Part shown: positions 38,196 to 46,856 of the stretch, piece by piece
How the letters are laid out: every line of letters starts with the position of its first letter
Numbering within the stretch: the stretch's first letter is position 1
Assembly: GCA_001303415.1 (NCBI GenBank)
Contig: LJTN01000002.1
Location: forward strand, 1-64,000
Reading direction: 5' to 3'
DNA: 64,000 bases
From: Myxococcales bacterium SG8_38
GTDB lineage: Bacteria; Myxococcota_A; Polyangia; Polyangiales; Houyiibacteriaceae
Notes under the pieces: generated by a model
What the model saw: the letters and a program-made list of their open reading frames with translations, nothing else
Database searches by the model: none
Told to the model about the DNA's origin: nothing
Position numbers and translations under genes: made by a program

Positions 38196-39683
38196 TTGCA
38201 GGAGCGGTTCCCGGCGCCGGAGTTCGACTCCCCCTCGGGCAGCGTATTTCCGCCGCCCGTCGGACGTAGGGTCTACTGCAACCGCAACCTCCGGCTCGAC
38301 CAGGTCAAAGCCGTCGGCTTCGACATGGATTACACGCTCGCGATCTATCGCCAGGCGGAGATGGATCGGTTGAGCATCGAGGCGACGGTCGCCAAGCTCG
38401 TGGAGCAGGGGTACCCCGAAGAGCTTCTGTCCATGAAGTACCGGACCGATTTCCCGATTCGGGGGCTGCTCATCGATCGCAAGCTCGGCAACGTCCTCAA
38501 GATGGATCGTTACCGGTACGTGAAGACGGCCTATCACGGGTTCCGCAAGCTGACCCGCGACGAGCGGCGGCACGCCTACCACACCCGGCGGCTCCGGCCG
38601 GGCACCGGCAGGTATCACTGGGTCGATACCCTCTACTCGCTCTCGGAGGTTGCCGTGTATGCGGCCGTGGTGGAGCACCTCGAAACCCATGGTCGAAGCG
38701 TCGACTATGGAAGGCTTTTCAGCGACATCCGGCGCTGCGCCGACCTCTCGCACCAAGACGGCTCCATCCTCGATGTCGTGCTGGAGGACCTCCCCCGCTA
38801 CGTGGAGCGCGACCCGGAGCTCGGAGTCTTGTTTCACAAGCTGCGTAGCGCTGGGAAGCGCTTGTTCCTCATCACGAACTCCGGTCCACAATACACCGAC
38901 GCGATGATGTCCTATCTCCTCGACGATGCGCTCGAGGAGTACCCGAGCTGGAGGAACTACCTGGACTACGTCTGCGCCGCATCGAAAAAGCCTGGTTTTT
39001 TCACGGGGAAGGCCCCGTTCGTCGATCTCCTGACCGGCTCCGAAACCCGGGACCCGGAGCGCGGCCGCCTCTACACCGGAGGGAACATTGCAGATCTGCA
39101 ACGCGCGCTGGGTTTTGCCGGCGACGAGGTCCTCTACGTGGGCGACCACATCTACGGCGACGTGCTTCGCGCCAAGAAGGAATCGACCTGGCGAACGGCG
39201 ATGATCATTCAAGAGATGGATGACGAGCTTCGGGTCCTTCGGGAGCATGCGGTCGGGCTCGAGCGTGCAAGCACCCTCGAGCAGATGCGGGACGCGGTCC
39301 AAGACGAGCTGCGCGAGCACCAGGCGCGTCTCAAGCGCGTCGAGCGCAAGCTCGCCGAGCAGGGGTCGGGTCCGGAGCGCGCGTCATGGGAAGCCAAACG
39401 GGTTCGCCATCGGCGCTCGATCGATCGATTGCGGGCGCAGCTCAAGGAGGTCGACGCGGAGCGCTCGGCGCTCGATGAAGCTCTGTCCCAGGCGTTTCAT
39501 CCGTTTTGGGGCTCTCTTTTCAAGGCTGGAAACGAGGTTTCGAGCTTCGGGAACCAAGTCGAGCAGTACGGGTGCATCTACACTTCGCGTGCCACCAACC
39601 TCGCGCAGTACTCGCCCATGCACTACTTCCAAAGCCCGAGACATCGGATGCCGCACGAGATCGGCAGCACGCCCGGCGTGTGA
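38196..39683 (+). CDS. HAD-IG family 5'-nucleotidase
   Basis: A 495-residue protein of the HAD superfamily (subfamily IG, cytosolic 5'-nucleotidase type). Motif I is VGFDMDYTLA near residue 41; motif II is FLITNSGPQ; motif III/IV is VGDHIYGDVLRAKK. A coiled-coil-like stretch rich in Glu/Arg follows at about 345-420, and the C-terminal VEQYGCIYTSRATNL is typical of the family. It would dephosphorylate nucleoside monophosphates. The start is TTG 38196, eight bases after rpmA; no other start fits. At the 3' end CACGCC/GGCGTG and a T-run (39689-39695) give a weak terminator. Confidence 0.88.
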   Translation: MQERFPAPEFDSPSGSVFPPPVGRRVYCNRNLRLDQVKAVGFDMDYTLAIYRQAEMDRLSIEATVAKLVEQGYPEELLSMKYRTDFPIRGLLIDRKLGNVLKMDRYRYVKTAYHGFRKLTRDERRHAYHTRRLRPGTGRYHWVDTLYSLSEVAVYAAVVEHLETHGRSVDYGRLFSDIRRCADLSHQDGSILDVVLEDLPRYVERDPELGVLFHKLRSAGKRLFLITNSGPQYTDAMMSYLLDDALEEYPSWRNYLDYVCAASKKPGFFTGKAPFVDLLTGSETRDPERGRLYTGGNIADLQRALGFAGDEVLYVGDHIYGDVLRAKKESTWRTAMIIQEMDDELRVLREHAVGLERASTLEQMRDAVQDELREHQARLKRVERKLAEQGSGPERASWEAKRVRHRRSIDRLRAQLKEVDAERSALDEALSQAFHPFWGSLFKAGNEVSSFGNQVEQYGCIYTSRATNLAQYSPMHYFQSPRHRMPHEIGSTPGV

Positions 39684-39720
39684 TCGCGTTTTTTTCTGTT
39701 CGCAATCGCTTCCGCTTGTC

Positions 39721-39726
39721 TATACT
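39721..39726 (+). promoter_or_regulatory. -10 element of the histone-H1-like gene
   Basis: TATACT is close to the sigma-70 -10 consensus; no clear -35 is seen at the right distance. It would give a leader of about 37 bases before ATG 39770, containing GGAG at suitable spacing. Confidence 0.35.
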
Positions 39727-39769
39727 GCGCAGCAATCAACCTGCGCGACAACTGACAATGGAGCGTGAC

Positions 39770-40195
39770 ATGGCGAAAGCAGCCACCAAGACAAGCAAGA
39801 AGCGGGCGTCGAAAAAGTCGTCGTCCAAGAAGTCCTCGAAGAAAGCCGCCAAGAAGGCAGTGCCCAAGAAGGCAGCCAAGAAGCAGGCTTCCGCGCTGAA
39901 GAAGAGGGCGCAGAAGGCACGCGCCAAGATCAAAAAGAGCGTGACCAAGGCTCGCAAGGACATCGAGAAAGAGGTTGCGGATTTGAGGAAGAAGGCCGAC
40001 GAGCTCCGCGCGAAGGCGGCCCAAAGCGCGGCGGCGCAACGGAAGAAGCTCGAAAAGCAGGTCGACTCACTCGAGAAGAAGATTGAGACGATGGCTGAAG
40101 AGGCGACCAAGAAGCTGAGGCCGAAGAAGAAGGCCTCCAAGAAGACGTCGGCCAAGAAGACCACGTCGAAGAAGGCGCCCGCGAAGAAGAAGTAG
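39770..40195 (+). CDS. Histone H1-like Lys/Ala-rich protein
   Basis: A 141-residue, very basic protein. Both ends are Lys/Ala/Ser-rich (KKRASKKSSSKKSSKKAAKK and KKTSAKKTTSKKAPAKKK), and the middle (about 50-110) is a predicted coiled coil of Lys/Glu/Ala heptads. This resembles bacterial histone H1-like nucleoid proteins that bind DNA through their Lys-rich tails. ATG 39770 (MAKAATK) is preferred because GGAG lies six bases upstream; ATG 39758 is the alternative. The long frame in the ORF track starting at 39506 is not real. A hairpin follows the stop codon. Confidence 0.78.
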   Translation: MAKAATKTSKKRASKKSSSKKSSKKAAKKAVPKKAAKKQASALKKRAQKARAKIKKSVTKARKDIEKEVADLRKKADELRAKAAQSAAAQRKKLEKQVDSLEKKIETMAEEATKKLRPKKKASKKTSAKKTTSKKAPAKKK

Positions 40196-40202
40196 CCCGT
40201 CG

Positions 40203-40246
40203 AGGACCTTGGCGGGGCGTGAGCGTTCACGTTCCCCGCCGGTCCT
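40203..40246. terminator. Strong hairpin between convergent genes
   Basis: AGGACC-TT-GGCGGGG pairs with CCCCGCC-GGTCCT, with a further inner stem CGTGA/TCACG around a four-base loop, so the arms are nearly complete over 44 bases. No T-tract follows on either strand, so it may act as a bidirectional Rho-assisted or stability element. It lies between the histone-like gene (plus) and a minus-strand gene ending at 40267. Confidence 0.65.
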
Positions 40247-40266
40247 TGCGGATCGGCGGCTTGCCG

Positions 40267-40968
40267 TCAGCCGATTCGCTCCATGATCAGCTCGGGTGCG
40301 CCCGGCGGGCCGTAGGGCCCCTCGAAGCGTAGAACCGTGTTCGGGGCCTTTGGATCGAACCACAGGTGGTATTTCGGCATGATGGGCTTCGCGAGCCGCG
40401 CCATCGTGGAGCCGACGCGGACGAAGTCGTTGAGGTCGGGAAACAGCACCATCTCCAAGGCCCTCGTCGTCCGGCCCCCGAGCTCTAGGTCGGTTTCGCC
40501 CTTGGTTTCGACGTACACCCGGGAAACGAAGCGATCGTTGATCCACGAGTAGAAGGCCCGCGTCCGCTCGGCTGCGGGCCAGCCGAGCATCAGAGGCAGC
40601 AGGACCTCGGGATAGGTGTTGGGCGCGAGCCCGAGGTCCGCGCCGAAGTCGACTTCCTCTCGACGAACCTGCCTACCCTCGGAGTCCAGCATCCGCCGCA
40701 TGAGGCGCTCGCTCTGCAGCCCATGCAAGGTCTTTCGCAAGATGAAGCTCTCCTCGATTGCGCCCGAGGCGATGTCGTACCTCGTGGCGAGCTCGATGTG
40801 CGCATCGTCGAGGTCGCTGAATCTCAGCGTGCCCTTGGACCCCGGCGCCAAGAGCCGGTTTGAATCGAGGATCGTGTGGAAGGCACGCTTGGGCCGGGGG
40901 CGCAGCCGATATTCGACCGTGGTTTCGAAGCCCGGAGGCGGCAGGGGAAGGAATGCGTTGGGGGTCAT
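40267..40968 (-). CDS. Hypothetical protein
   Basis: A 233-residue protein I do not recognise. There is no signal peptide or membrane segment. The centre alternates charged and hydrophobic residues in long beta-like strands (SFILRKTLHGLQ, SRVYVETKGETDLELGG). The C-terminus is rich in Pro/Gly with hydrophobic ends. It lies 9 bp downstream of the double DUF1254 gene on the same strand and likely shares its transcript. TAGAAT lies eleven bases before the ATG, inside the end of the upstream gene. Confidence 0.65.
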   Translation of the reverse strand: MTPNAFLPLPPPGFETTVEYRLRPRPKRAFHTILDSNRLLAPGSKGTLRFSDLDDAHIELATRYDIASGAIEESFILRKTLHGLQSERLMRRMLDSEGRQVRREEVDFGADLGLAPNTYPEVLLPLMLGWPAAERTRAFYSWINDRFVSRVYVETKGETDLELGGRTTRALEMVLFPDLNDFVRVGSTMARLAKPIMPKYHLWFDPKAPNTVLRFEGPYGPPGAPELIMERIG

Positions 40969-40977
40969 CGGTTTGTG

Positions 40978-43900
40978 TCATTCTATGACAGAATCGACCG
41001 GCTCGATCTCGCCGGGCCGCCACGTTTCGTCGAACCAGGCCCCGAGCGGCCGATGGAGCCGTAGCATCACGAACCAACCCTTGCCGGGGACGGTCTGGAT
41101 CCAATTGCGTTCCTGGCCTCGAGGCGGCGCGGGCCCGAAGTAGAGCGTCCTCGATCCGTCCGCGCTGGGCACCACGTCGCGGCTCTCACTGCTCAAGCTT
41201 GGGCTCGGCGAACGCGGTGCCTGGAGCATCGAGCGGGTTTGCGGATCGTAGACTACGATCGACCAGAAGCCTTTGGCTGGGATGCGGGGAGGGAGCGTCA
41301 AGCGGTACGTCTTTCCTCCATCGAGGTACTTGCCGTTGGCGTCGGTCACAGCCAGCGCATGCGCGAAACCGGCGCCGACCTGGTCGTCCGCCATTCCCGG
41401 GCTCCTCATCGCGCTCAGGTAGAAGAACATCGCACGGACATCGAGCAGGCGTACGCCATTTCGCAGATGCTCGCCGCCGGCGGCTTGCAAGGCGTACCAG
41501 GCCGAGCCTTCGTAGAGGTACGCCGCGTCGTTGCGGTGGCGAAACGCGATAGCGCGCGCAGTGCCATTCGCAACGGCGGCCGCTTCGACCAAAATTGCCT
41601 TCATGCGCGGATCCGGCGCAAACGGCTTTCCCTTCTCGATCCCGATCGATGCCAGCAAACCGAGGATCTCGGGTCCGAATGCCGCTCGAGGCTCTTCTTG
41701 GATCATCGTGTCGACGTCCTCGTAATAGCGGAAGTCGCTCGGGAAAATTGTCTGCAGGGATTTTCCGGAGAGACTTAGGAAGCGCATCGGGTCCTCGTCT
41801 TCTTCCTGGTCTTCGACGGGTTCCTCTTCCGTCGTCTCCGTGGCGCTCTGCTCCGCGTCGAGGCCGAGATCCTCGAGGAGCGGCACATCGAAGGGGTAGA
41901 TGCGGATCCGCTCCTTTAGGGCGCCGACCGCCGCGCCTCGGTTGCTTTCAGCCGCAAAGCTGCCCCACATGAGCAGGTTGCCGTAGGTGGGTGACTTGAA
42001 GATGAAGTACTGCTCGGAGAGCTGCCCCTGATATTCGGGAGGCGCAAACAAGAATAGGCCCCCGGCTCCCTCGTCCGGACCTGCTTCTCCAAGATCGGCG
42101 ACACGGCGCCCGAAGAAGTCGACGACGATGCCGACCGTGCTGGGCGGGCTCTGCACGATCATCGCGCCCTTACGAAGATCGAGCCAGGTACCCGCATAGA
42201 TGCTTTCGGTGTCCCCTGTGAGGAACAGCGAATGAGCATCCATCGGATCGAAGATGGCGACGGTGGCGTTGTCGTCGACTCCCGCGCTCCGAAAGCCCCG
42301 CCGCATGGCGACCATCGACGCACCGGAAATCGTGTGGAGAAAGGCATCCACACCGCGGATGAAGTCGAGATGGTCGTAGAGCCGCTTCGCAGTTGGCTCG
42401 GTCGGGACGCCGTGCACGAGCTCGAGCACGCCCATCCGCGTCTTCACGCGTTCCGGCGCGCGGAGCGATGCCGGCACCTCGGTCCACAACTTCGGCCGCT
42501 TCCGGTCCGGTCTCGCCGGTGGAGCCTCGGTGACGAGCTCGATGTCCCCGGGCCGCCAAGTCCGATCGAACCAAGCCCGGCCGGTGCCGCGAAGGCGCAG
42601 CACGGCGTGCCAGCCCTTGCCGGGCACGGTTTGAATCCAATTGGAAGCCTTCTTCTTTGACCGGGGCGGCGTCGGCCCGAAGTAGATCGTAATCGACCCG
42701 TCTTGGTTGGGACGCGCATCGCCGCGCGCATCGCTCACGCTCGGAAGGCGCTGATCGGTCTGCAGCATCGATCGGGTCTCGTTGTCGTATACCGTGACCG
42801 ACCAGAGCTCCTTGCTCGGCACGTCGGGCGGCAAGGTCAGGGCGTAGCTTCGGCTCCCGTCGAGCAGCCGGCCCTTGTCGTCTCGGAACGCGATCACGGC
42901 CTGCGATCCGGATTCCGGCTCGCTCGGGCCGAGGGCCGCCGCGTCGATTGCCGCGCAGTAGTGGAACCGCACGCGGGCATCCGTCAAACCCATGCCATCG
43001 CGGATGAAGTCGCGGCTGCTTCCGACCAGAGGGGTCTGCCATTGTCGATCTTCGTAGAGGTACGCCTCGGCGTCGCGGGGCGAAAATAGAAGCGCTCGAG
43101 CGGTCGCATCGGCGACCGCCGCGGCATCGGCGAGGATCGCCTTCATGCGCGCATCCGGCGCGAACCGCTTTCCTTTCTCGATGCCGATCGACGCGAGGAG
43201 GCCCAGGATCTCGGGGTCTTGGCTCTCGGCCGGCTCCTCCTGCACCAAAGTGTCGAGCCGCTCGAAGTAGCTCGCATCGCTTGGGTGAATCGTCTGCAGG
43301 GGCAAGCCGGAGATGTCGAGAAACGGATTTGGGGGTGGTCTGCGGGCTTCGGTCAACGGATAGATCTTGAGATATTTCTTGAAGCTGCCGACCGCCGGCT
43401 CAGGGCGTCCGTCGATGAGAGGCCCGCGGAGTGCAGCCCAAACGCCGTAGGTGCGCGACCGCACGGCGAACTCGCTTCTCGGAACGTGGCCCGCGTAGCC
43501 CGGCGGAACCACCACGTACATCCCGCCGCGCCCTCGATCAGGCCCTGCTTTTCCCGTCTCGATGAGGCGACGACCCCAAGAATCATAGAGCGTGCCCTCG
43601 ACGTAGGGCGGCGTCTCGACGACGATGGGTCCACCCTTGAGGTCGATCCAGGCGGTCGCATAGACCGCCTCGCTGCTCGGCGTCAGGAACAGCGAGCGGG
43701 CATCCATCGTCGATTCGGTCAACAGCACCGTGTAGTTCGGAAGCGCGCCCGCGTCGTACAGCCCCTGTCGCATGGCGACCATCGAAGCGCCGGGAATCGT
43801 TTGCAAGAAGGCGCGAGCTGCACGAAGGAAGTCGAGGTGGTCGTAGACTGTGTCCACCGTCTGCTGGTCGGGCAGCCCGTCGAAAAACCGGAGTGTGCCG

Positions 43901-44040
43901 ATGCGTGTCCGCACCGAGTCCGGCGTCAGCACGGACGGCGGTGGCGGGGCATAGGACTCGACGGGCGTCTCGTCGGGGACTTGCGTGCCGGCGCATCCGG
44001 CCAGCAGCGAAGCCAGCAGCCACGACGCCACACGGTTCAT
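40978..44040 (-). CDS. Lipoprotein with two fused DUF1254/DUF1214 units
   Basis: A 1020-residue lipoprotein (lipobox LLAGC, Cys 16). Two homologous halves, about residues 35-505 and 515-1015, each read like a complete DUF1254 plus DUF1214 protein: GASMVAMRQG/GASMVAMRRG, ARSLFLTPSSEAVYATAWID/AHSLFLTGDTESIYAGTWLD, LQTIHPSD/LQTIFPSD, NWIQTVPGKGW in both. Normal family members are about 450-500 residues with one copy. The family is widespread and of poorly known function. The ORF track start (44079) lies inside the tRNA gene; ATG 44040 opens the signal peptide. The gene begins 3 bp after the tRNA. Confidence 0.85.
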   Translation of the reverse strand: MNRVASWLLASLLAGCAGTQVPDETPVESYAPPPPSVLTPDSVRTRIGTLRFFDGLPDQQTVDTVYDHLDFLRAARAFLQTIPGASMVAMRQGLYDAGALPNYTVLLTESTMDARSLFLTPSSEAVYATAWIDLKGGPIVVETPPYVEGTLYDSWGRRLIETGKAGPDRGRGGMYVVVPPGYAGHVPRSEFAVRSRTYGVWAALRGPLIDGRPEPAVGSFKKYLKIYPLTEARRPPPNPFLDISGLPLQTIHPSDASYFERLDTLVQEEPAESQDPEILGLLASIGIEKGKRFAPDARMKAILADAAAVADATARALLFSPRDAEAYLYEDRQWQTPLVGSSRDFIRDGMGLTDARVRFHYCAAIDAAALGPSEPESGSQAVIAFRDDKGRLLDGSRSYALTLPPDVPSKELWSVTVYDNETRSMLQTDQRLPSVSDARGDARPNQDGSITIYFGPTPPRSKKKASNWIQTVPGKGWHAVLRLRGTGRAWFDRTWRPGDIELVTEAPPARPDRKRPKLWTEVPASLRAPERVKTRMGVLELVHGVPTEPTAKRLYDHLDFIRGVDAFLHTISGASMVAMRRGFRSAGVDDNATVAIFDPMDAHSLFLTGDTESIYAGTWLDLRKGAMIVQSPPSTVGIVVDFFGRRVADLGEAGPDEGAGGLFLFAPPEYQGQLSEQYFIFKSPTYGNLLMWGSFAAESNRGAAVGALKERIRIYPFDVPLLEDLGLDAEQSATETTEEEPVEDQEEDEDPMRFLSLSGKSLQTIFPSDFRYYEDVDTMIQEEPRAAFGPEILGLLASIGIEKGKPFAPDPRMKAILVEAAAVANGTARAIAFRHRNDAAYLYEGSAWYALQAAGGEHLRNGVRLLDVRAMFFYLSAMRSPGMADDQVGAGFAHALAVTDANGKYLDGGKTYRLTLPPRIPAKGFWSIVVYDPQTRSMLQAPRSPSPSLSSESRDVVPSADGSRTLYFGPAPPRGQERNWIQTVPGKGWFVMLRLHRPLGAWFDETWRPGEIEPVDSVIE

Positions 44041-44043
44041 CGG

Positions 44044-44116
44044 TGGAGCCAAGGGGGATCGAACCCCTGACCTTCGCACTGCCAGTGCGACGCTCTCCCA
44101 GCTGAGCTATGGCCCC
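44044..44116 (-). tRNA. tRNA-Ala (GGC)
   Basis: A complete 73-nt tRNA fold: acceptor GGGGCCA/TGGCTCC, D arm GCTC/GAGC, anticodon arm TCGCA-CTGGCAG-TGCGA with anticodon GGC (Ala), variable loop AGGTC, T arm AGGGG-TTCGATC-CCCCT, discriminator A. The bases after it are CCG, so CCA is not encoded in full and needs addition. The gene ends 3 bp before the ATG of the lipoprotein gene downstream. Confidence 0.95.
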
Positions 44117-44128
44117 GAAAGGGAGCCC

Positions 44129-44157
44129 GGCTTAGCAACCCTGAGCCCCGGGCGCAA
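44129..44157 (-). promoter_or_regulatory. Candidate tRNA-Ala promoter
   Basis: TTGCGC and TAAGCC are 17 bp apart on the minus strand, ending about 13 bases before the 5' end of the tRNA, followed by a GC-rich stretch like a stringent discriminator. The -10 is poor. Confidence 0.3.
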
Positions 44158-44211
44158 ACGACCGCCGGATTTCTTGACGTTTCCCCCCGTCCCAGCGAAA
44201 CGAAACAGACG

Positions 44212-45711
44212 ATGCGCGCAGCCCTCTTGTGCCTGGCTCTGCTCACTGCGTGCAGCAGCTACGACGACCTGCCGCTACTCGAGGTGGACGAAATCGAGCC
44301 CTCGGAGATCGAGCCGGGCGCAACCCTGCACATTCACGGCCGCGGCTTTCCGTTGGGCCGTGCGCCCGAGATCTGGCTCCGCGGCTCGGTCTATCGGCCT
44401 GGGGTGGGGAAGGTGAAGGCCGAGGTGCGACTCGCGGGCATCGTGCAGTCGGAGGCGCTCGTGGAGGTCCCGGTCGATGACGCCTTGATCGAGGCCCTCG
44501 GGGGACGCGCCACGATGGACGGAGAGCTGCGGATCGGGTTCCGGGCGGCAGACGGCCGTCGCGACGTCTTCGCATCGGAGCGCGCGCGGCTCGACTTCCT
44601 GCCCGACACACCCACCCAGCTCCGCGCCCAAAGCATTCGCCAGGAGCGCACCAGCGCGGAGCCGCTCGCTGCGGAAGGTTTCGGGATCGAGCTTTCTAGA
44701 GAAGAGCTCGGCACGGTCGGGGTTCGCGTGGTTTCGGTCGCTCCTGGGAGCGTTGCATCCAAGCAGGGGCTGAAGGCCGGGGACATCGTCGTGGGGCTCG
44801 ACGGCGTTCGCATCTACGGTTGGCGCGACTTCGTCCCCGACCCGAGCACCAGCGAGTCGACGGTATTCGTCGCGCGGGACGGCCTGCGCAGCGTCCACGC
44901 GCTGCGATGGCCGCACGAAGCCTCCGAGCCGCCCTTGGATCCAGTTGCCCTGTCGCTTTTCGTTCTTCTCGGCTTGGTGCTCGGCTGGGTCTCCCCGGCC
45001 GCGCTCGGAATCCGCGCCCGTCTTTCGAGAGTTGCTCCGTCGACCTGGATCACCCGCCTGAGCCTCACGCTGACGCTAGCCGCGCTGCTCCTGATCGTCT
45101 CCTCGCTTCAGTGGGTGACCATGTGGATCGTCGTGCTCGGCGTGTTTGCTGCGCTCTTCAGCCTGGCCGCCAAGGATCGCGCCGGCGCCACGAGCTTCGC
45201 CTGGGTCTTGACCTCGACCCTCACCGTGATGTTGCTCGCCCGCACCGCCAGCATCGCGGAGATCGTCGCGGCGCAGAGCCCGGCGGCTCTGAGGTGGTAT
45301 ATCTTCCAGTCGCCGGCTTCGTTTCTCGCCTTTGGCGTCTCGCTTCACGCGGTCGGCACCGTGTGCGCCAGGGCCCGCCTCTCGGGCTCGTTGTACGCGG
45401 GCGCGCTGGCCGTGCTTGCCGCGGCCCTGTTCCTAGGGGGCGTGCCGCTCGACGACGCGGCATGGGGCGTCGCGATCCTTTCGGCAAAGGCGGGCGCTGT
45501 CCTCGTCGCAGCCCACGCCTTCGAGATCAGCTCGAAGACCGCTGTCACGCTGTCGGCCCTCGGTCTGCTCCTCGCATTGCTGAGCTTCTTCGTCGATCTC
45601 GAGACGCTGTTTCCTGCGTGGAGTGCGCTTGCCGTGGGATGCGTCTGTGCGCTCGGTGCACGCGCCATCGTGCCACCTCTACGCCGGGCCTCGGAGCCGG
45701 TACCTGTCTAA
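44212..45711 (+). CDS. Lipoprotein with PDZ domain and multi-TM C-terminus
   Basis: A 499-residue protein. It has a lipobox-like LLTAC (Cys 14), then an Ig/IPT-like beta domain (about 25-130), a PDZ domain (about 150-230, with SVASKQGLKAGDIVVGLDGV), then seven or more hydrophobic helices (about 245-490). The helices contain WYIFQSPASFLAFGVSLHAV, which resembles the WxxFQxPLGFLLF region of NADH dehydrogenase subunit H; this is a weak inference. Function is unknown. The start is ATG 44212 without a clear Shine-Dalgarno. It is divergent from the tRNA and convergent with the PilZ gene. Confidence 0.7.
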   Translation: MRAALLCLALLTACSSYDDLPLLEVDEIEPSEIEPGATLHIHGRGFPLGRAPEIWLRGSVYRPGVGKVKAEVRLAGIVQSEALVEVPVDDALIEALGGRATMDGELRIGFRAADGRRDVFASERARLDFLPDTPTQLRAQSIRQERTSAEPLAAEGFGIELSREELGTVGVRVVSVAPGSVASKQGLKAGDIVVGLDGVRIYGWRDFVPDPSTSESTVFVARDGLRSVHALRWPHEASEPPLDPVALSLFVLLGLVLGWVSPAALGIRARLSRVAPSTWITRLSLTLTLAALLLIVSSLQWVTMWIVVLGVFAALFSLAAKDRAGATSFAWVLTSTLTVMLLARTASIAEIVAAQSPAALRWYIFQSPASFLAFGVSLHAVGTVCARARLSGSLYAGALAVLAAALFLGGVPLDDAAWGVAILSAKAGAVLVAAHAFEISSKTAVTLSALGLLLALLSFFVDLETLFPAWSALAVGCVCALGARAIVPPLRRASEPVPV

Positions 45712-45725
45712 GCCTTGGTCCCGGG

Positions 45726-46076
45726 TTAGGCGGCAGCCTGCGCGAGGAAGTCCAGAAGCTGCGCCCGTTGCTGCTCGGAAGGCGAAAGGAATTGCACGCC
45801 CGCTTCATAGCCGTGCTCACCCACGGGGTTGCTCCAGCGAATCGAGGCGGCACATTCGAATGGCGACCGATCTGGATCTTCGATGCCGTCTTGCGTCAGG
45901 AAGAACGTGACCGTCACCACCTCGCCCGGAGACAGCGGTCGGGCAAACACGATCGCTGCGCCGCCGGCGCTGAGGTTCTTCATTTCGGCGTGGAGGGTCT
46001 CGCCCGAGATGGTCAGCTCGCACGAGATCCGAACCGGATAGCGCGCATGCTGTCTTGGCTCTTGAGCCCGGATCAC
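45726..46076 (-). CDS. PilZ-domain protein
   Basis: A 116-residue single-domain protein with the c-di-GMP binding signatures RxxxR (RQHAR, residues 8-12) and N-x-S-x-x-G (NLSAGG, 34-39). It probably binds c-di-GMP through these residues and passes the signal to a partner. The GTG start sits next to AAGAGG. It is the third gene of the ribF, Rho-N, PilZ set on the minus strand. Confidence 0.85.
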   Translation of the reverse strand: MIRAQEPRQHARYPVRISCELTISGETLHAEMKNLSAGGAAIVFARPLSPGEVVTVTFFLTQDGIEDPDRSPFECAASIRWSNPVGEHGYEAGVQFLSPSEQQRAQLLDFLAQAAA

Positions 46077-46121
46077 CTCTTCATGATGATCAAGAAGAGG
46101 CGGAGAGCAAAATTGCCGGCG

Positions 46122-46856
46122 CTAGTGAAGCTCGGATCGACGGGCCCGCGAGCGCATCCTGACCTCTTCCGCTTCGGCGCTCAGCTCGCCGTCATCGGGC
46201 TGATCCCGAAGCAACTTGGCGTAGATTGCCAGGGATCGCTTGAAATGGCCTTGCTCGGCGAGAATGCGCGCCATGGTCCGCGTGGGAAAAGGCTCCTCGA
46301 ACGTGCCGGCGCTTCTGGAAAAGACGCCCGCGGGAGGCCAGCTCGACGAGCTGGTCGGGCCGCCATCCTCGCCCTCGACTGCAACCCGGGGCGCGGGCTC
46401 CCAAGAGGCAAGGGGCACCGTCTCCGCCGGAGTCTCCGGCTCCACCGCTGTCGCGGACGGCGTCACCGGCGCTGACGCTGTGACAGCCGCTGGCTGTGCG
46501 GCTGGTGTGTCTCCAGACGCGGATGCTCCCGCCGACCCCGAAGAGGGCCCTGCCGCAGCCTCTGGCTCCGATGCCCCCGATCCCACCCTGGGCACCGGCA
46601 CCTCCGAATCGCCGCGCAGCGGCGTATCATGCTCCTCTTCCGGCCGCGGCGTCGCAGCGGCCGTGGTCTGCAGCGCCCACTTCGCAAAGCCGAGCACCTT
46701 GCCCAACAGGCCCTCGGGCTGCGATCCGCTGCGGTGGCTTCGAATCGCTTGAATGAGCTGTCCGCGGCTCATCGCGTAGGTGTCGCGGACTCCCAGTCGC
46801 TCGGCCTCGTCACGCAGCTCAGGGGTGGTCAGGTTGTAGAGTCGGGTCAGATCCAT
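46122..46856 (-). CDS. Rho-N/SAP-like domain protein with disordered middle
   Basis: A 244-residue protein. Residues 1-45 (LTRLYNLTTPELRDEAERLG, SRGQLIQAI) match the helix-extended-helix Rho N-terminal domain, which binds nucleic acid. A low-complexity Ala/Pro/Ser/Glu-rich region spans about 65-190, and a C-terminal TPR-like helix pair (ILAEQGHFKRSLAIYAKLLR) ends the protein. It is not transcription terminator Rho itself, as there is no ATPase. The 5' end overlaps ribF by 10 bp. Function unknown; nucleic-acid tethering is inferred. Confidence 0.72.
   Translation of the reverse strand: MDLTRLYNLTTPELRDEAERLGVRDTYAMSRGQLIQAIRSHRSGSQPEGLLGKVLGFAKWALQTTAAATPRPEEEHDTPLRGDSEVPVPRVGSGASEPEAAAGPSSGSAGASASGDTPAAQPAAVTASAPVTPSATAVEPETPAETVPLASWEPAPRVAVEGEDGGPTSSSSWPPAGVFSRSAGTFEEPFPTRTMARILAEQGHFKRSLAIYAKLLRDQPDDGELSAEAEEVRMRSRARRSELH

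Follow-up and report, generated by a model that had tools for sequence, protein, structure and literature searches.

In the 64,000-nucleotide stretch analysed here (the window), the gene for tRNA-Ala(GGC) lies immediately before a lipoprotein gene on the same strand, and this layout, together with comparison with related genomes, suggests that both are transcribed together; tRNA maturation may then release a message with almost no leader. We hold the whole account (a move of the lipoprotein gene, co-transcription, a maturation cut and translation independent of a Shine-Dalgarno sequence) with moderate confidence; co-transcription, the position of the cut and leaderless initiation are the steps that we infer. 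Co-transcription from the tRNA promoter is likely, and it is plausible, though less certain, that the mRNA is set free with hardly any leader. The preliminary description of this DNA had proposed a tRNA-punctuated leaderless message. The shared strand, the missing room for a promoter, the absence of a Shine-Dalgarno sequence and of a terminator-like site, and selection on the gene favour this proposal; the 3-nt leader that it included is not conserved, as the leader in a second species (G009) would have been about 9 nt. The features of the locus are as follows (positions in the window, strand, basis):

39770..40195, plus strand: convergent gene for a Lys/Ala-rich (histone H1-like) protein of 141 aa (blastn of intergenic regions, six relatives)
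40267..40968, minus strand: 233-aa open reading frame, 9 nt past the lipoprotein stop codon (homologs in the genus)
40978..44040, minus strand: lipoprotein gene, 1020 aa, two tandem DUF1254+DUF1214 pairs (open reading frame, profile search)
44041..44043, minus strand: CCG separating the discriminator from the start codon, the entire leader if the cut falls after the discriminator (sequence)
44044..44116, minus strand: tRNA-Ala(GGC), CCA incompletely encoded (ARAGORN, Rfam RF00005)
44129..44157, minus strand: probable tRNA promoter, TTGCGC (44157-44152), 17-nt spacer, TAAGCC (44134-44129) (conservation)
44212..45711, plus strand: divergent gene for a PDZ-domain membrane protein, syntenic in the genus (profile match, synteny)

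The junction between tRNA-Ala(GGC) and the lipoprotein gene

ARAGORN placed the tRNA at 44042-44116 on the minus strand, and the Rfam tRNA model (RF00005) matched 44044-44116 with 65.7 bits (cut-off 29); the Rfam search of positions 39500-46500 gave nothing besides this tRNA. Read on the minus strand, the acceptor strand GGCTCC (44050-44045) is followed by the discriminator A (44044), CC (44043-44042), G (44041) and ATG (44040-44038). The tRNA thus directly abuts the reading frame, with 3 nt from discriminator to ATG, and as CCG follows the discriminator, the CCA end is not fully encoded and would be added after processing. The earlier claim of a 3-nt gap on one strand is borne out in coordinates and spacing by the sequence, ARAGORN and Rfam. 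No second tRNA-Ala with the GGC anticodon was seen in the genome of the window, a draft assembly of 105 contigs. ATG 44040 is the sensible start, because the in-frame longer start, GTG 44079, sits inside the tRNA and would prepend a non-signal stretch; the orthologs in two relatives (G012 and G010) begin at the equivalent point. The protein starts with MNRVASWLLASLLAGC, which contains a lipobox.

Transcription and translation signals

It had also been claimed that no other promoter fits between the two genes, and the gap indeed has no room for one; nor is there a terminator-like site, the two genes being adjacent on one strand. The motif TTGCGC-N16/17-TAAGCC upstream of the tRNA is kept in the window and in six other species of the genus (L033-L039). 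That it is the tRNA promoter is probable from this conservation, because a scan for the sigma-70 consensus over 43700-44400 on both strands found no sigma-70-like site there or elsewhere in that interval. GGAG, GAGG and AGGA are absent from the 20 nt before the ATG, so that, as expected of a leaderless mRNA, no Shine-Dalgarno sequence stands upstream of ATG 44040. Such 4-mers precede 25 of 40 putative genes of the window, which is near chance when up to six starts per gene are allowed, and the count was set aside.

In four relatives whose tRNA is not followed by the lipoprotein gene, a hairpin adjoins the tRNA 3' end; G007, G015 and G017 share the same CCCGU...ACGGG element, and G011 has another. 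These hairpins may be terminators or processing elements at which the tRNA transcript is ended or trimmed. No such hairpin follows the tRNA in the window, an absence that is supporting rather than decisive, because G003 and G006, which also lack the gene there, have no hairpin either. If the message is released, its first eight bases, start codon included, are predicted to be unpaired. As long as the RNA is uncut, the binding place of the 30S subunit would be occupied by a folded tRNA. The predicted fold of the entire precursor was no better than that of shuffles (z 0.26) and is uninformative. The conserved hairpin directly after tRNA-Ala in three relatives (L065:1920-1984, L067:11123-11187, L113 after 3141) reads CCCGUAAAAGCGAUGC...GCAUCGCUCACGGG and has no T run.

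The lipoprotein gene and its neighbour

DUF1254 and DUF1214 (Pfam PF06863 and PF06742) matched the lipoprotein in two stretches each with 131 and 190 bits, above the curated cut-off. With dN/dS of 0.24 against G012 and 0.18 against G010, third positions being the most divergent, the gene is by sequence comparison under purifying selection and its frame intact; as dS exceeds 1, recent relaxation of selection could be hidden in these values. The lipoprotein is itself an internal duplication, its two DUF1254-DUF1214 units sharing 66% DNA identity across about 790 nt, and a single-unit relative is encoded elsewhere in the same genome (G000:C48:13391-14890). The 233-aa reading frame is the probable third member of the transcript. 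It has no Pfam or NCBIfam match; six species of the genus carry homologs with 70-75% identity, but outside this locus.

Relatives and history of the locus

The PDZ gene, tRNA-Ala with its promoter-like motif and the downstream genes are common to G003, G006, G007, G009, G011 and G015. In these six species, the Lys/Ala-rich gene lies directly behind the tRNA and, convergent with it, ends within about 150 nt; in the window, a segment of ~3.7 kb with the lipoprotein gene and the 233-aa reading frame lies between the tRNA and this next gene. The lipoprotein gene is intact at the tRNA junction in the species of the window only. G009, however, retains a relic of the beginning of the gene, 30 nt long and 7 nt past the same tRNA, identical at 26 of 30 nt to the gene starts of G012 and G010 (0 of 20,000 shuffles were as good); it translates as MRLAAWVL and then runs out. 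The spacing after ACC is 1 nt in the window versus 7 nt in G009.

A tree of three neighbouring genes, unrooted and with long branches, unites the genome of the window (G000) and G009 with support 1.00, their proteins being about 70% identical. A single old move behind the tRNA fits because these two group together, and the simplest account of the sequences would be one such move, kept in the window and mostly deleted in G009; as the tree has no fixed root, the gene may alternatively have been lost in the other clade. Compared among relatives in this way, the adjacency first noted in the window seems, from relic and tree, to be shared with the ancestor of G009.

In G012 and G010, the lipoprotein gene is at another place, behind a gene for a TPR protein (a label taken from its sequence rather than from a profile match). 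Its start overlaps the TPR stop codon as ATGA in G012, so translation there can proceed by coupling rather than from a Shine-Dalgarno sequence of its own. At the tRNA locus of G017 (L113:2961-3141), only the 3' half of the original tRNA-Ala is left, and an intact tRNA-Ala(GGC) of different sequence precedes it, which looks like a replacement of the missing 5' half.

tRNA 3' maturation

RNase Z is the enzyme that classically cuts tRNA precursors exactly behind the discriminator. All 25 family genomes searched (that of the window and 24 relatives) gave only partial matches to the RNase Z profile, of at most 98 bits (cut-off 293), whereas three genomes from other families within the order gave full-length matches of 279-283 bits. 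The partial matches lack profile positions of about 153-200, where we presume the tRNA-binding exosite to lie, and to judge from the profile the family seems to have no RNase Z of the canonical type with an exosite. In its place, a shorter protein that resembles RNase Z and contains HLHGDH is encoded at L140 (G000:C71:33932-34597) and in the relatives of family f1. The genome of the window also possesses two genes of the nucleotidyltransferase/poly(A)-polymerase family (CCA/poly(A)) and a gene for RNase E/G, which means that the cut could fall away from the discriminator. Depending on the cut, the predicted leader would be 3 nt (after the discriminator) or shorter (within CC), and a later cut would destroy the start. 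In Streptomyces coelicolor, cutting within CC was reported for tRNAs whose genes encode CCA (PMC4681348).

Proposed mechanism and alternative explanations

In the ancestor of the species of the window and G009, the lipoprotein gene would have moved from behind the TPR-protein gene to directly behind tRNA-Ala(GGC) and would since have depended on the tRNA promoter. RNA polymerase would not stop behind the tRNA but go on to transcribe the lipoprotein gene and, probably, the 233-aa reading frame, and tRNA maturation would separate tRNA and message. A cut at or just after the discriminator would let the message begin 0-3 nt before the AUG, to be translated without a Shine-Dalgarno sequence. tRNA processing at the junction would leave a 5' phosphate on the message; a 5' phosphate favours leaderless translation, which becomes weaker when the start codon is some distance from the 5' end (reviewed in PMC9031893). 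Against this explanation, no full-length RNase Z match was obtained in the family genomes searched, a cut by RNase E/G within the start region could ruin the message, and the spacing differs in G009, which subsequently lost its copy.

The closeness may instead be a neutral accident of rearrangement and read-through that has no role, the protein being made weakly from the uncut precursor or after chance cuts. We consider this rather improbable. It would agree with the intact junction in a single species, the loss of the gene in G009, the 1-nt and 7-nt spacings and a dS at which recent relaxation could be hidden, and the presence of the 233-aa reading frame at other loci in relatives marks the segment as a patchwork; yet the move seems older than the split of G000 and G009, and a frame of 1020 codons is still intact and constrained. 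A promoter inside the tRNA gene, from which the lipoprotein gene would obtain its own short-leader mRNA independently of tRNA processing, is unlikely in our judgement. The scan found no sigma-70-like site on either strand, and the tRNA sequence is identical in relatives lacking the gene, so that nothing inside it is tuned for the gene; the silence of the scan is nevertheless weak evidence, because it also missed the probable promoter of the tRNA itself, and two short hexamers suffice for a promoter.

Were GTG 44031 the real start, the leader after processing would measure 12 nt instead of 3 nt. This codon is in frame, and it is preceded by AACCG, much as the ATG is in G012 and G009, but starting there would deprive the signal peptide of its only basic residue, orthologs keep M-R-L-A-A-W, and a Shine-Dalgarno sequence would still be missing, which makes this start very unlikely. 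We reject as scarcely credible an integrative element in the 3' end of the tRNA with the lipoprotein gene as cargo. The extra segment does start precisely where the tRNA ends, and integration at tRNA 3' ends is common; self-blastn of 39600-44116, however, revealed no direct repeat of this end at the far side, which largely refutes the idea, the segment contains two open reading frames only and no integrase, and the lipoprotein gene has orthologs within the genus.

Comparison with known systems

The type case of a bacterial tRNA-mRNA operon is thrU-tyrU-glyT-thrT-tufB of E. coli, and a tRNA-Thr/Tyr/Gly/Thr-tuf cluster is also present in the genome of the window. As in the E. coli operon, the lipoprotein gene follows a same-strand tRNA with no obvious separate promoter or terminator, and tRNA maturation would free the mRNA; unlike tuf of the same genome, with its leader of about 45 nt and AGGA site, it has a leader of 3 nt and no such site. 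If released by tRNA processing, one cut would yield both the tRNA and the 5' end of the mRNA, and translation must begin without a Shine-Dalgarno sequence. The lipoprotein junction is apparently, from its arrangement, a new form of this known operon type and part of a wider class. In animal mitochondria, tRNAs reportedly punctuate the transcripts (Ojala and co-workers, 1981). The junction is similar in its gap of zero to three bases between tRNA and start codon and in that the 5' end of the message would be set by the tRNA; it differs in being a single junction on a bacterial chromosome with a putative cut, in a family where no full-length RNase Z was found.

Leaderless mRNAs of bacteria have been reviewed (PMC9031893) and described for mycobacteria (PMC4633059) and for Streptomyces coelicolor and E. 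coli (PMC4681348); cutting by MazF was reported as a further source (PMC3848588). The predicted lipoprotein message resembles them in having AUG at or near its 5' end and no Shine-Dalgarno sequence, but the 5' ends mapped in the former three papers originate from transcription starts, whereas that of the lipoprotein message would come from tRNA maturation. Among open-licence papers, we found none on bacterial leaderless mRNAs derived from tRNAs.

Rarity of the junction and occurrences elsewhere

Among 33 tRNA matches in the genome of the window, flanks were read for 30, and no other tRNA abuts an ATG-started gene; the nearest alternatives have TTG or GTG frames, probably by chance. The pattern T-arm...ACCN-ATG occurs in 26 of 379 genomes of the phylum, and only in the window does a recognisable gene follow an ARAGORN-called tRNA, frames in the other genomes being judged by length and N-terminus rather than by profile search. 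The tRNA-lipoprotein adjacency is thus more than chance. A wider scan of genome contigs with this pattern plus AA gave at least 118 places, at least 90 of them called tRNAs; it cannot show a spacing preference, because the pattern fixed the spacing. The matches listed include a gene for a penicillin-binding transpeptidase behind tRNA-Ile (L193), one for a class-I tRNA synthetase (trpS-like) behind tRNA-Met (L175), tsaD behind tRNA-Val(GAC) in three Patescibacteria, with the start codon 0-1 nt beyond ACC or ACCA, and, in three Actinomarina, a gene for an FAD-dependent oxidoreductase whose ATG directly follows the CCA end of tmRNA:

L205:4-1351 and L266:6090-7412: tRNA-Val(GAC)/tsaD (Pfam)
L272:2077-2267: tRNA-Val(GAC)/tsaD (N-terminus; gene cut by the contig end)
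L160:3645-5161, L201:4651-6165 and L267:4072-5588: tmRNA/FAD-dependent oxidoreductase (Pfam on L267)

Chance frames were also among the places, and no paper on the tRNA-Val(GAC)/tsaD or tmRNA/oxidoreductase junctions was found among those of open licence. Both of these, in three species each, have a start codon right after tRNA or tmRNA and recognisable genes, as does the junction in the window; they differ in lying in small compact genomes, before other genes and in several species, whereas the latter is intact in one species. Tentatively, and with more doubt than belief, we suggest that 3' maturation of tRNA or tmRNA creates the 5' ends of leaderless messages in bacteria as a counterpart of mitochondrial punctuation and has come to do so several times (lipoprotein, tsaD, oxidoreductase). 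If true, protein expression would be tied to tRNA supply and tRNA processing, bacteria would have a natural source of leaderless mRNAs with a 5' monophosphate, and ACCN-ATG behind a T-arm would be a simple genomic signature for finding more. Relatives that have lost the gene or carry it elsewhere offer a natural before-and-after comparison.

A Fisher test of junctions with versus without encoded CCA was discarded, its counts being hand-set and the sample lineage-biased. One match, before rpsO in G157, was rejected as a tRNA, none having been called there. The sequence in question (L125, G157:C122:81203-81230) is a T-arm-like GGTTCGAGTCC, with partly tRNA-like sequence, that adjoins the start codon of rpsO; it may be a regulatory mimic or have matched by chance.
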